A DNA stretch of 5,364 nucleotides from the NCBI GenBank assembly GCA_020432595.1, contig JAGQGA010000404.1:1-5364 (forward strand), in the 5' to 3' direction. A program made the position numbers and the translations under genes. Positions 1,582 to 5,364 of the stretch are shown here, in pieces. The notes under the pieces are model-generated. The model was not told the DNA's origin. It saw only the letters and a program-made list of their open reading frames with translations, and did not search any database. Origin of the DNA: Anaerolineales bacterium (lineage in GTDB: Bacteria > Chloroflexota > Anaerolineae > Promineifilales > Promineifilaceae). Position 1 is the first letter of the stretch; every line of letters begins with the position of its first letter.

Positions 1582-2259
1582 ATGTCATTTAGCCAACAAC
1601 TATTAGCCAAAGCCGAACCCTACATGCAATCCCAGGTCAAAAAGCCATTCTTGCAAGGCTTGATCAACGGCGATTTACCTGCCGCCGCCTTTCAATATTG
1701 GCTGCGTGTGGATTACCCCTACCTGCACAACTTCGTCAAAGTCTGCGCCCTCGGCATCCTCAAAGCCGATGACCCCCAAGATGTAGACGTGTTTCTGGGT
1801 CACATACACGGTATCCAAGACGAAATGCGCGACCACGAAAAACATGCCGCTGCCCAAGGCTTAACGCGGGATGATTTGCTCAACTACCCCATGGGGCCAT
1901 TGAAATACTCTTACACCCGCCACCAACTCGCCAGTGCCTATCACGGCTCATTAGGCGATGTGCAAGCCGCGATACTTGCCTGCCAATGGGGGTATGGTGA
2001 AGCCGTCCACCGCCTTTTGCAAACAAAAGCGATAGCACCAGACAACCCCTACAAAGAGTGGTTTGCCTTTCACGGCAACCCCGTCCATCGGGAAAATGCC
2101 AAAATGGCCTATGCCCTCATAGATCGGCAAGCAGCCCAAAGCACGGAACAGCAAATGGATCGCATGGCCGAGATTTTTATGACCAGTGTGCGCCACGAAA
2201 CAATGTTGTGGGACGAATATTACAACATGGCTCAGTGGGAACGGTATCCAGAACTATAA
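1582..2259 (+). CDS. TenA-family protein (thiaminase II / aminopyrimidine aminohydrolase-like)
   Basis: The 225-residue all-helical protein has the typical TenA length. TenA enzymes hydrolyse aminopyrimidine breakdown products of thiamine to hydroxymethylpyrimidine for thiamine salvage, and some cleave thiamine; they are cytosolic. Compared by memory with Bacillus subtilis TenA, D44 and Y47 of WLRVDYPYL, Y111 in YSYT, C134 in LACQWGYGE (the nucleophile position) and E206 in HETMLW are all in the expected places. One active-site tyrosine (Y163 in B. subtilis, in WIGTYGG) appears to be His164 here (WFAFHGN), so activity or substrate may differ. The start at 1582 follows a GGAG site. The stop codon is followed after one base by the ATG of the kinase fusion, which has no clear RBS, so the two are probably translationally coupled. 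No thi genes are visible nearby, and the neighbours suggest nucleoside salvage. Family membership is firm; the reaction is not. Confidence 0.88.
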   Translation: MSFSQQLLAKAEPYMQSQVKKPFLQGLINGDLPAAAFQYWLRVDYPYLHNFVKVCALGILKADDPQDVDVFLGHIHGIQDEMRDHEKHAAAQGLTRDDLLNYPMGPLKYSYTRHQLASAYHGSLGDVQAAILACQWGYGEAVHRLLQTKAIAPDNPYKEWFAFHGNPVHRENAKMAYALIDRQAAQSTEQQMDRMAEIFMTSVRHETMLWDEYYNMAQWERYPEL

Positions 2260-2260
2260 C

Positions 2261-4051
2261 ATGACAGATCTGCTCATCATCGGCGGCGCATCGCTTGATC
2301 TGCTGCATCTGGCCGATGGTTCATTTGAAAGTGCTGGTGGAGCAGGGCTGTACACCGCTCTTGCTGCCCATCGCTGTGGAGCCAGCGTTGCCTTACTCGC
2401 TCCGCGGCCTGAGCCATGCCCCCCACCCCTGCAACCTCTGGCCGACAGGCTGACCGCCTGGCATGGTTCCCCCGTTGCCCCAACCGATTTGCCCCACTTT
2501 GAGATCGCCTATCCCGAAGGGCGCACCGAATATCGCCAAGCAAAATTTGGTGTCATGCCCCAGCTTACACCTGACCTGCTGCCAGCCGACCTGAGCAGCT
2601 ATTCCCTCATCCACGTCACTCCCCTGGGCGACCCGGCGCGGCAGTTGGCCTTTTTGGAGGCGTGTCGCCAGCGTGGGGCACGGCAATTGGCGGCCGGGAC
2701 TAACTTCGTCTTTATCGAGCAACACGCGGCTATTATCCGGCAGGTCATGGCAACGGCCGATTATTTTTTTCTCAATCAACGGGAAGCCCTTGCCCTCTTT
2801 GGCACACTGGACAAGGCGCAGATCGCACCGGGCAAAGTTCTCTTCATTACCCTCGGTGACAAAGGGGTGATGGTTGTTCAGGGAGATTATGCCACCGTTA
2901 TTCCCACACAGGCGGTGGTGGCGGTTGACCCGACGGGGGCTGGTGACAGCTTCTGTGGGGCAACGCTGGCTCGATTGAGGCAAAAGCAGCACCCAATCAT
3001 GGCGGCACAGCAGGCCCTGCCTTTGGTAACCGAGATGGTTAGGCAGGTAGGGCCGGCCGCTTTGCTCTCCCATGAGCCAGTTCCGGCGATAGCTTTGGAT
3101 GGGCGGGTGCGGCTGAATGAAAGGCAGTTGGCACGGGTGGCAGAGGCTATTGCCCATTATCCGGGAACGACACCGCATGATTTTGTAACGGCCGTTCTTC
3201 CCCCCATCAACCATCCCGCCACCCTGGGCTACTTTTTCGCCGCCACCTTGCAACAGTTCAGCTTCTGGAGCATACAGGCTGGCGCGTATGATCGGCCTAT
3301 GTGGGCATCCATTAACGGTCAGCGGCACAAAGGCTCGGAATACCTGTGGGCGGCGTTTTGGCGGCAAGAATTAGCCAACCCAGGTTTTTGCACACCCCAG
3401 CAGCAAGCCGAGTTAAACCAAGACAAACTCATGCAGTTGATGCGCGACGATGCTGGCGCAAATCCATTACCCGCTCTCCCGCTCCACCTCAGCCAGGCGC
3501 AAGCCTATGGGCGCGACATGCTGGCACTACAACTGACCCCGCAAACCATCATAAACGAGGCGCAGGCTTCAGAACGGCCGTTGCAAACCTTTTTAGCGCG
3601 GCTGGATCAAATAGGTGGCTATAAAGAAGACCCACTGCGGAAGAAAAGTGCCCTGTTAGCGATCATTCTCAACCAACGGCCGGAAAAATTCCTGCCCTTT
3701 GCCGATGATGAAGATGTAACGCCTGTGCTAGATTACCACGCCATGCGTGCCTGCTTGCGGCTGGGGCTGGTTGAGATTGTGGATGAGCAGCTACAGGTAA
3801 AACTTGTGCGGCGGGAGCTGGTCACGCCCGACGAGGAATGGGCGGTGCGGCTGGCCTGCTATAGAGCCTATGAACAGCTTGTCGTTCGTTCTGGCAAGCG
3901 ATATGGGGCAGTTGGTTGGTTTCTCTTTAGCAGTATGCGCCGCTATTGCTTAGAGATGGAGGTGACGCTTTGTTCACAGTGCCATCTGGAAAAGGTGTGC
4001 GAGAAACAGCGGAAACTGTTTCAACCAGTCATACGGACGGTGTTCTATTAA
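2261..4051 (+). CDS. PfkB-type kinase fused to a queuosine-salvage (QNG1/DUF2419)-like domain with a four-cysteine cluster
   Basis: This 596-residue protein has two domains. Residues 1 to about 275 form a PfkB/ribokinase-family kinase, which phosphorylates sugars or nucleosides. It has GGAGLYTALAAHRCGA (26-41; the usual Asn of this glycine motif is absent), NQREA (172-176), TLGDKG (197-202) and VDPTGAGDSF (222-231) with catalytic base D229. Residues about 285-596 resemble the QNG1/DUF2419 family, HhH-glycosylase-like enzymes that release queuine from queuosine 5'-monophosphate. The match, made from memory of human QNG1, includes FSFWS (333-337), GSEYLWAAFWR (358-368), DPLRKKSALLA (457-467), VLDYHAMRACLRLGLV (489-504, with candidate catalytic D491) and the C-terminal IRTVFY. 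Unlike the human protein as I recall it, it carries C563, C571, C574 and C580, a C-x7-C-x2-C-x5-C pattern close to the Fe-S loop of endonuclease III. The ATG at 2261 is one base after the tenA stop; an in-frame ATG at 2186 would overlap tenA and adds nothing PfkB-like. The proposed kinase-then-glycosylase function is inference. Confidence 0.82.
   Translation: MTDLLIIGGASLDLLHLADGSFESAGGAGLYTALAAHRCGASVALLAPRPEPCPPPLQPLADRLTAWHGSPVAPTDLPHFEIAYPEGRTEYRQAKFGVMPQLTPDLLPADLSSYSLIHVTPLGDPARQLAFLEACRQRGARQLAAGTNFVFIEQHAAIIRQVMATADYFFLNQREALALFGTLDKAQIAPGKVLFITLGDKGVMVVQGDYATVIPTQAVVAVDPTGAGDSFCGATLARLRQKQHPIMAAQQALPLVTEMVRQVGPAALLSHEPVPAIALDGRVRLNERQLARVAEAIAHYPGTTPHDFVTAVLPPINHPATLGYFFAATLQQFSFWSIQAGAYDRPMWASINGQRHKGSEYLWAAFWRQELANPGFCTPQQQAELNQDKLMQLMRDDAGANPLPALPLHLSQAQAYGRDMLALQLTPQTIINEAQASERPLQTFLARLDQIGGYKEDPLRKKSALLAIILNQRPEKFLPFADDEDVTPVLDYHAMRACLRLGLVEIVDEQLQVKLVRRELVTPDEEWAVRLACYRAYEQLVVRSGKRYGAVGWFLFSSMRRYCLEMEVTLCSQCHLEKVCEKQRKLFQPVIRTVFY
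3187..3196. repeat. Palindromic decamer AACGGCCGTT, copy 2
   Basis: Exact copy within the kinase-fusion gene, read as (A)ACG-GCC-GTT (Thr-Ala-Val), a different frame from copy 1. Confidence 0.8.
3573..3582. repeat. Palindromic decamer AACGGCCGTT, copy 3
   Basis: Exact copy in the same gene, read in the third frame as GAA-CGG-CCG-TTG (Glu-Arg-Pro-Leu). Confidence 0.8.
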
Positions 4052-4117: not shown

Positions 4118-4858
4118 CTAAAATGATTCCCTGTCTCTGGCAATGAGCTTACGCAGGCCAAGAACGGCCGTTTCGCACAAATTCTCCAGCCCCGGATGCG
4201 CCGCATTAACAGCCACCATAATGCCGCCCGCCCGCTTCCGCAAAACGCTGCACAGCACAAACAATGCCGCCGCCTCCATCTCCGAACACATCACCCCCCC
4301 CACAACCCAGGCCTTCCAACGTGCTTTTAACTCATCGGCCAAAGGCATTCGGTCTGGCTCAATCTCCCCATAAAACGAATCTTTCGAGTGGGAAAGACCA
4401 ACATGATAGCCAATGCCCCGCTCCGCACAGGCCAGCCGCAGGCAATCCACCACATCCAGGTCAGCCACCGCCGGAAAAGCCATCGGCATATAGTGACTGG
4501 CCGTCCCTTCGTCGCGCACAGCTCCAGAGACAACAACTAAATCGCCATTGTTCATCGTGTCCGGCTGCATCAGGCCAGAGGTGCCGACACGAATAAAGGT
4601 ATCTGCGCCAATGCGGGCCAACTCTTCGACGGCGATGGCGGTGGAGGGGCCACCAATGCCGGTGGAGGTCACGGATACTTTGACACCATCCACCGTGCCT
4701 GTAAACGTGCGGTGTTCTCGATTGTGGGTTACTTCGTGTGCCTCATCGAAAAAAGAGGCAATCAGCGGCACTCGGCCAGGGTCGCCCGGCAGCAGCACGT
4801 AACGGCCAACATCGCCAGACCGCATATTGATGTGATATTGGAGGGGTTCTTCGTTCAT
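4118..4858 (-). CDS. Uridine-phosphorylase-type nucleoside phosphorylase
   Basis: This complete 246-residue protein belongs to the PNP/UDP phosphorylase family (NP-I), cytosolic enzymes that split nucleosides with phosphate into base and ribose 1-phosphate. It resembles E. coli Udp throughout: LPGDPGRV (23-30) and R90 in RVGTSG for phosphate, R47 in HNREH, the family signature STGIGGPSTAIAVEEL (65-80), AFPAVAD (127-133), SKDSFYG (158-164) and SEMEA (192-196) for the ribose site. The base-recognition loop reads GEIEPDRMP (164-172). Its paralogue has Gln in place of E165, which may change base preference. The ATG at 4858 has AAGGAA 7 nt upstream and follows the upstream phosphorylase stop by 4 bp, so the two form an operon. 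An 8-G run encodes part of VVGGV just before the active-site SEME. Family call is firm; 'uridine' as substrate is probable, not proven. Confidence 0.9.
   Translation of the reverse strand: MNEEPLQYHINMRSGDVGRYVLLPGDPGRVPLIASFFDEAHEVTHNREHRTFTGTVDGVKVSVTSTGIGGPSTAIAVEELARIGADTFIRVGTSGLMQPDTMNNGDLVVVSGAVRDEGTASHYMPMAFPAVADLDVVDCLRLACAERGIGYHVGLSHSKDSFYGEIEPDRMPLADELKARWKAWVVGGVMCSEMEAAALFVLCSVLRKRAGGIMVAVNAAHPGLENLCETAVLGLRKLIARDRESF
4163..4172. repeat. Palindromic decamer AACGGCCGTT, copy 4
   Basis: Exact copy in the codons for Thr-Ala-Val near the C-terminus of the downstream phosphorylase. The paralogue has the same decamer at the same place, so copies 4 and 5 may descend from one. Confidence 0.8.
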
Positions 4859-4862
4859 GAGT

Positions 4863-5364
4863 TTATTCCTTATCCCGCTCGATCAGCAGCTTAACGCCAG
4901 CAACGGCCGTTTCCAACAAGTTCGACAAATCCGCGTGCGTGCCACCATAAATCATAATGCCCCCCGCTCGGCAGCCTAGCACCCGTGACACCACAAAAAT
5001 TGTCGAGGCTTCCATTTCCGAGGCCAAGGCTCCCCCCTGCACCCAGGCCGACCAGCGATCTTGCAATTGGTGCGCCACCGGCATCCGCTGCGGCTCGTGC
5101 TGGCCGTAAAAAGAGTCCTTCGACTGGCAAATGCCCACATGATGGCGCAAGCTAGCCGTCCGCGCCGCCTGTCGCAATGCCAACGTCACCTCAGGATCTG
5201 CCACCGCCGGAAAAGCCAGCGGCTCATATTGCTGGGACGTATACTCATCTCGAATAGCTGCCCAAGCAATCACCAAATCCCCTGGCTCCATAAACTCCTG
5301 CATTTTGCCTGATGTGCCTACACGAAGGAAAGTGTCCGCCCCAATTTTGGCTAACTCCTCCACG
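4863..5364 (-). CDS. Second uridine-phosphorylase-type nucleoside phosphorylase, N-terminus cut off by window
   Basis: This is the C-terminal two-thirds (167 residues visible) of a second NP-I family phosphorylase. The visible part starts inside the family signature (VEEL) at the right edge, so the true start lies outside, roughly 75 codons upstream judging from the neighbour. It shares RVGTSG, AFPAVAD, SKDSFYG, SEMEA and the ETAV C-terminal motif with the downstream gene. By hand I count about 55-60% identity over about 165 residues, which points to an old tandem duplication. It keeps the base-recognition form GQHEPQRMP with Gln, expected for uridine phosphorylases, whereas its neighbour has Glu. 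The segment MIYGGTHADLSNL also differs from its neighbour's MVAVNAAHPGLENL. Its TAA stop lies 4 bp before the next ATG and the next gene's RBS overlaps this gene's last codons, so they are probably co-transcribed. Confidence 0.9.
   Translation of the reverse strand, partial: VEELAKIGADTFLRVGTSGKMQEFMEPGDLVIAWAAIRDEYTSQQYEPLAFPAVADPEVTLALRQAARTASLRHHVGICQSKDSFYGQHEPQRMPVAHQLQDRWSAWVQGGALASEMEASTIFVVSRVLGCRAGGIMIYGGTHADLSNLLETAVAGVKLLIERDKE
4866..4871 (-). promoter_or_regulatory. Ribosome binding site of the downstream phosphorylase
   Basis: AAGGAA on the minus strand, 7 nt from the ATG at 4858, lies inside the last codons of the upstream phosphorylase and favours translational coupling. Confidence 0.65.
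4902..4911. repeat. Palindromic decamer AACGGCCGTT, copy 5
   Basis: Exact copy in the Thr-Ala-Val codons of the second phosphorylase, homologous in position to copy 4. Confidence 0.8.

Follow-up and report, generated by a model that had tools for sequence, protein, structure and literature searches.

The window analysed here, a whole stretch of 5,364 nt from an Anaerolineales bacterium (contig JAGQGA010000404.1, assembly GCA_020432595.1), carried a gene for a 596-residue protein in which a PfkB kinase domain was followed by a Qng1-like domain with a loop of four cysteines (Cys4 loop). The features are collected in Table 1, where residue numbers are those of the fused protein; residues of Qng1 follow the numbering of the Sphaerobacter enzyme. 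The kinase half matched PF00294 with 62 bits against a cut-off of 25.8 and retained the GAGD motif, demonstrating its membership of the PfkB family and bearing out the first-pass annotation of the window, which had proposed a kinase with an intact GAGD and a glycosylase-like domain in one chain.

Table 1. Features of the window, with coordinates along its 5,364 nt
Feature	Position	Strand	Remark
Fused gene, PfkB kinase and Qng1-like domain with Cys4 loop, 596 residues	2261..4051	+	
PfkB (ribokinase-family) domain, about residues 1-280	2261..3100	+	
GAGD kinase catalytic motif, residues 226-229	2936..2947	+	Invariant in 40 aligned fusions; GAGD string in 116/120 listed relatives
Qng1/DUF2419-fold domain, residues 285-596	3113..4048	+	
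K461, equivalent of Qng1 K199	3641..3643	+	Lys in 63/63 sequences, three clades
D491, equivalent of Qng1 D231	3731..3733	+	Asp in 63/63 sequences, three clades
G552, position of Qng1 D298	3914..3916	+	Gly throughout the window's branch
F556, position of Qng1 W302	3926..3928	+	
Cys4 loop C563-X7-C571-X2-C574-X5-C580	3947..4000	+	Putative [4Fe-4S] loop
TenA/thiaminase II-like gene	1582..2259	+	Stop one base ahead of the ATG of the fused gene
Two tandem uridine-phosphorylase-like genes (PF01048)	4118..5363	-	Second truncated by the window end

The C-terminal half was modelled on its own because the listed matches of a fold search with the full-length protein were all kinases. Among the folds listed for this half, the closest solved one was Qng1, a strong match, so that the QNG1/DUF2419 likeness first noticed by eye held. 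EndoIII and MutY also matched the model, far more weakly, with alignments extending to residues 301-306. In the window, this half scored 20.3 and 23.0 bits against PF10343, below the gathering cut-off of 25; the relative P0015 passed it with 27.1 bits. A phmmer search of the PDB with the single C-terminal sequence gave no match at E 1, and a profile of the domain found 7ugk at 2.1e-6. PF00294 and PF10343 were the only Pfam families detected in the fused protein at E <=0.01, and a PsuG-type domain was not found. Kinase and glycosidase-like domain, the latter with the Qng1 fold, are thus joined in one chain. Qng1 is the enzyme that recovers queuine, a tRNA micronutrient, and the Qng1/QNG1/DUF2419 family of queuosine 5'-monophosphate hydrolases (PF10343; PDB 7u07, 7u91, 7ulc and 7ugk) is the closest known system. 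Unlike canonical Qng1, the fused type forms a separate clade, bears the Cys4 loop, has Phe in place of W302 and carries an attached kinase; the window protein further differs in having Gly in place of D298 and a score under the family cut-off.

The fusion was conserved. Among 7996 candidates scored, 1251 proteins were found at E <=1e-3; the 120 listed relatives were 517-619 residues long, covered 87-100% of the query and shared 52-81% identity with it (100% for P0001). Precomputed PF10343 annotation was present for 95 of them and lacking for 25, and the source names, where an organism was given, were Anaerolineales, Anaerolineae, Chloroflexi/Chloroflexota or 'bacterium'. Of eight named fused-gene loci, seven carried titles of Chloroflexota groups; the eighth, L001, was labelled Coprothermobacterota, possibly through a binning error. 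Within the class of genome G007, 298 genomes were covered: PF10343 matches occurred in 57 and matches to a profile of the window-type domain in 25.

An unrooted tree of 63 sequences separated canonical Qng1 (clade A), the fused type (clade B) and a standalone Cys-rich type (clade C) as splits with support of 100, 100 and 99, respectively. Clades B and C were each found in 13 of the 298 genomes, G092 having both, and A and B occurred together in G192, G245 and G079. The clade C proteins (loci L060-L071, L075 and L119-L126) were 329-356 residues long when complete and had the Cys4 positions along with several further cysteines; the fused-kinase profile gave no match in these loci. The Qng1-like domain of the fusion stands as a sister clade to canonical Qng1, from which it has diverged. 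PF10343-type matches in Anaerolineae span at least three separate clades, and not all of them should be annotated as queuosine salvage.

The four loop cysteines were invariant in all 120 listed relatives. The pattern C-X7-C-X2-C-X5-C was kept in 235 of 239 proteins; in three the first gap was 8, and in one the pattern was not found. In the 63-sequence alignment the four positions were Cys in B and C, not in A. In the helix-hairpin-helix glycosylases EndoIII and MutY, a [4Fe-4S] cluster sits at the corresponding end of the domain, in a loop of the form C-X6-C-X2-C-X5-C. The first gap of the fused protein differs from theirs by one residue, X7 for X6, so the spacing is not exactly the same, although both spacing and placement are close. 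By this analogy, a [4Fe-4S] cluster is probably present in the equivalent loop of the glycosidase half, and the role of the proposed cluster is more likely structural than catalytic. If true, an Fe-S Qng1-like clade would tie a micronutrient-salvage enzyme to the Fe-S DNA glycosylases of the same fold.

The equivalents of D231, which we take to be the catalytic Asp of Qng1, and of K199 were kept in 30/30 A, 20/20 B and 13/13 C sequences; the PDB titles include a D231N mutant of Qng1. The pocket residues singled out in the first-pass annotation (Phe/Trp of FSFWS, D491) were likewise conserved in homologues. In the 40 aligned fusions, the kinase catalytic residues were invariant next to those of the glycosidase. 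The position of W302 was Trp in 29 of 30 A sequences (the remaining one was unread) and in all 13 of C, and Phe in all 20 of B. At the position of D298, Asp was found in all A and C sequences and 18/20 of B, and among the 120 listed relatives the residue was Asp in 84, Gly in 18 and Asn in 18. D298 and W302 are named as active-site residues of Qng1 (PMC11592518), and the window protein has neither (G552, F556).

We propose, with a probability of about 0.6, that the fused protein is a bifunctional nucleoside kinase/nucleotide N-glycosidase. The PfkB half would use ATP to phosphorylate the 5' position of a nucleoside, and the Qng1-fold half would then hydrolyse the N-glycosidic bond of the 5'-monophosphate to give free base and ribose 5-phosphate. 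The two folds and the conservation of the catalytic residues, the fusion and the cysteines are shown by the data; a kinase joined to a Qng1-fold domain, both with their catalytic residues kept, fits a kinase-then-hydrolase scheme, and we infer both reactions, their order, the metal cluster and the substrate. The two-step salvage first suggested thus stands in its architecture and catalytic residues, while its simple queuosine version is weakened; the data argue that the protein is not simply canonical Qng1 plus a kinase. As a possible substrate we favour a nucleoside of the 7-deazaguanine type, either queuosine or one of its precursors, for instance preQ1-riboside.

Several observations weigh against this bifunctional assignment. 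The kinase half lay below every NCBIfam equivalog cut-off, and by fold 3kd6 tied with ribokinase; compared with such PfkB/ribokinase nucleoside kinases, the fused protein has a second, C-terminal domain. At the W302 position Phe was found in 116 of the 120 listed relatives, and at the D298 position Gly in 14/14 members of the window's branch (P0001-P0014). Three genomes of an order-wide sample (G251, G379 and G450) had the Cys4 domain without a kinase match in the flanks fetched, and G251 gave no match to the fused kinase beyond the generic PfkB level; the kinase and glycosidase steps thus need not be tied. A zinc site in the loop, instead of Fe-S, is also possible. Qng1 has been described as acting on queuosine 5'-monophosphate (Q-MP), and the first-pass annotation had argued that a kinase is needed for this reason. 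Qng1 is, however, also stated to cleave queuosine (Q) or Q-MP (PMC11130926), so a kinase is not strictly required.

The queuosine pathway of the host genomes was compared in two samples: a hand-chosen panel of 66 Anaerolineae genomes (20 with B, 13 with C, one of them shared, 14 with A and 20 without a Qng1-like gene, the last two groups being parts of larger sets) and an order sample of 301 genomes from the order of G035, 22 of which had B. Five B genomes were common to both. A gene for tRNA-guanine transglycosylase (TGT) was present in 21/22 B and 258/279 other genomes of the order sample. In the panel, TGT was found in 16 of the B genomes; 13 of these had one with GGL[AS]VGE, which we take to be the preQ1-type reading, Val at that site presumably going with preQ1 use; the remaining three also had canonical Qng1 and its variant TGT. 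The TGTs of canonical-Qng1 genomes read [IV]GG-SLG[KR] in 13/13 aligned cases, three from genomes also having B. A second TGT, reading GGWPLD (L215-L220), was found in the B genomes G002, G008 and G251 and in G010, G031 and G153, which lack B; the two that were scanned scored over the general TGT cut-off and just under that of the queuosine-TGT equivalog. In G008 and G251 this gene lay within about 7 kb of a PF02592 transporter gene. QueA was found in 3/14 canonical-only genomes, in 16/20 with B, where the G007 and G198 genes were partial, and in 19/20 panel genomes without a Qng1-like gene. Loss of TGT in G007, which looked like a genome in almost a single contig, was considered as an argument against queuosine and dropped, as the QueA of this genome runs into a stretch of N where TGT may lie.

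Among 40 regions around canonical qng1, a TGT gene stood alongside in 22 and a QrtT-like transporter gene in 5. The pairing of canonical qng1 with an altered-pocket TGT (L137-L146 and L147-L186) resembles an Anaerolineae cassette for the salvage of queuine. In L155 (genome G106), two tandem PfkB-family genes (48.5 and 39.1 bits) directly followed qng1 and tgt. PfkB thus stood beside canonical qng1 in at least 1 of the 40 regions, a lower bound in that a motif search found none and the fused-kinase profile found L155; a broader kinase profile, built partly from L155, detected no further canonical region with PfkB among the 40.

QueC matches at E <=0.001 occurred in 34 of the 66 panel genomes, 31 passing the Pfam cut-off of 22 bits, with a best score of 30.6 bits. 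Three of the best matches were NAD synthases (238.8-252.8 bits in Pfam), and two that were scanned reached 29-32 bits against 150.3 for the QueC equivalog. On these scores, with three matches checked, QueC was taken as absent from the panel, and because TGT and QueA were nevertheless present in most of the genomes, they probably take preQ0 or preQ1 from their surroundings. PF02592, the family of the preQ0/preQ1 transporter, was found in 10/20 B, 5/13 C, 5/14 A and 19/20 panel genomes without a Qng1-like gene. In the order sample it occurred in 222/301 genomes, namely 9/22 with B compared with 213/279 others (Fisher p 0.0007, uncorrected for phylogeny or completeness); G251, G379 and G450 all had it, and 55 to 57 genomes had TGT and neither PF02592 nor B. 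No genome of the 66 had a match over the cut-off of TIGR04038, presumably the queuine lyase QueL family, and weaker radical-SAM matches were seen in 63. QueL as a partner making queuine usable was set aside on this result, a weak exclusion given the presumed family link.

These data bear on what the fused protein acts on. A tentative possibility is queuosine-specific salvage, from queuosine through the monophosphate to queuine, with Qng1 and a queuosine kinase in one chain. The nearest fold and the kept D231 and K199 equivalents agree with it, as does the retention of TGT in nearly all B genomes of the order sample, and L155 indicates that queuine-salvage genes can be accompanied by a kinase. 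Since B genomes mostly have TGT of the presumed preQ1 type together with QueA (partial in two), released queuine would have no obvious use there; the other three TGT-bearing ones have canonical Qng1 with its own TGT, and the TIGR04038 result points the same way. The first choice of queuosine as the obvious candidate also overlooked the Cys4 loop, and the separate clade and the Gly at D298 speak against it. The GGWPLD TGT of three B genomes tempers the TGT/QueA objection, although three genomes without B share it; this TGT and the L155 kinases somewhat favour queuosine and left our estimate unchanged. An unlikely alternative is that preQ1 (or preQ0) is set free from the ribonucleoside to serve the preQ1-type TGT, partly making up for the missing preQ0 synthesis and base transporter. 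The low QueC scores are consistent with this, as is the lower frequency of PF02592 with B, against the other genomes of the order sample and against the panel genomes without a Qng1-like gene; a base that lacks the cyclopentenediol could also account for the altered pocket. The genomes having TGT and neither transporter nor B indicate, however, that B is not required there, and the transporter persists in 9/22 B genomes. Moreover, the two samples overlap in their B genomes, the statistics ignore phylogeny and completeness, 31 genomes do pass the low Pfam cut-off for QueC with three matches checked, and the natural occurrence of free preQ1-riboside is, to our knowledge, not established.

The caution that a different modified nucleoside is equally possible was judged sound. 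PsuK is a PfkB kinase. Pseudouridine is broken down by a kinase and then by a glycosidase of the 5'-monophosphate (PMC9247573). The fused protein resembles PsuK and PsuG in this kinase-then-glycosidase logic, and it might dispose of a different modified nucleoside arising from damage or from the turnover of RNA, a conjecture we hold no more than tentatively. An AlkZ-related neighbour in three genomes and an alkyltransferase-like gene in two would suit such a role, but these repair-type neighbours recur in just those regions, and unlike PsuG the protein has no PsuG-type Pfam domain. It is quite improbable that the Cys4 loop binds zinc or acts as a structural clamp and that the two halves, though fused, have unlinked functions: standalone Cys4 domains do exist, but both sets of catalytic residues stay invariant in the aligned fusions and the loop lies close to that of EndoIII/MutY in spacing and place. 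Returning to the kinase/N-glycosidase, a wider and rather doubtful extension would be a new bacterial route of 7-deazaguanine salvage, in which one chain phosphorylates preQ1-riboside or queuosine and an Fe-S form of Qng1 frees the base for tRNA queuosine synthesis in bacteria without preQ0 synthesis and often without the known transporter for the base; clades B and C would then also be Fe-S intermediates that link EndoIII/MutY-type DNA glycosylases with Qng1. A limited literature search, mostly short of full texts, found no description of a kinase-Qng1 fusion or of a queuosine kinase; the natural fusion is a starting point for finding such a kinase, or else a new nucleoside substrate.

The window neighbours were genes for a short-chain dehydrogenase/reductase (SDR), a deoxyribosyltransferase-like protein, TenA (PF03070, 118 bits; TIGR04306, 135.8 bits, cut-off 130) and the two phosphorylases. 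They were compared by sequence clustering with 20 other B regions representing 19 distinct places (L005 = L118). The SDR alone clustered elsewhere (L005/L118 and L116); relatives of the deoxyribosyltransferase, phosphorylases and TenA were not found by clustering in these regions, and L117 had a different PF01048 phosphorylase two genes off, not linked by clustering. The deoxyribosyltransferase and phosphorylases, once cited in support of a nucleoside substrate, thus lend it less weight, and no neighbour was widespread enough among the 20 regions for use. The AlkZ-related gene adjoined the fused gene in L112 (4921-5778, PF24741) and, as judged by clustering, in L114 (5424-6278) and L115 (1855-2712); the alkyltransferase-like gene adjoined it in L003 (Pfam) and L006 (clustering). 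Directly upstream of the fused gene in L005 (1384-4033), cytidine deaminase-like, PfkB and IF-2B-family genes resembled a nucleoside breakdown set. More divergent copies of the fused gene were found in L210-L214, being second copies in four of the five genomes, each with another PfkB-like gene (305-318 residues) convergent to it. Remnants of the kinase half were seen in G002 (C174, 1161-2164), as a truncated second copy, and in G005 (C6, 17795-18616), where a kinase-like frame stands alone and contains an internal stop.
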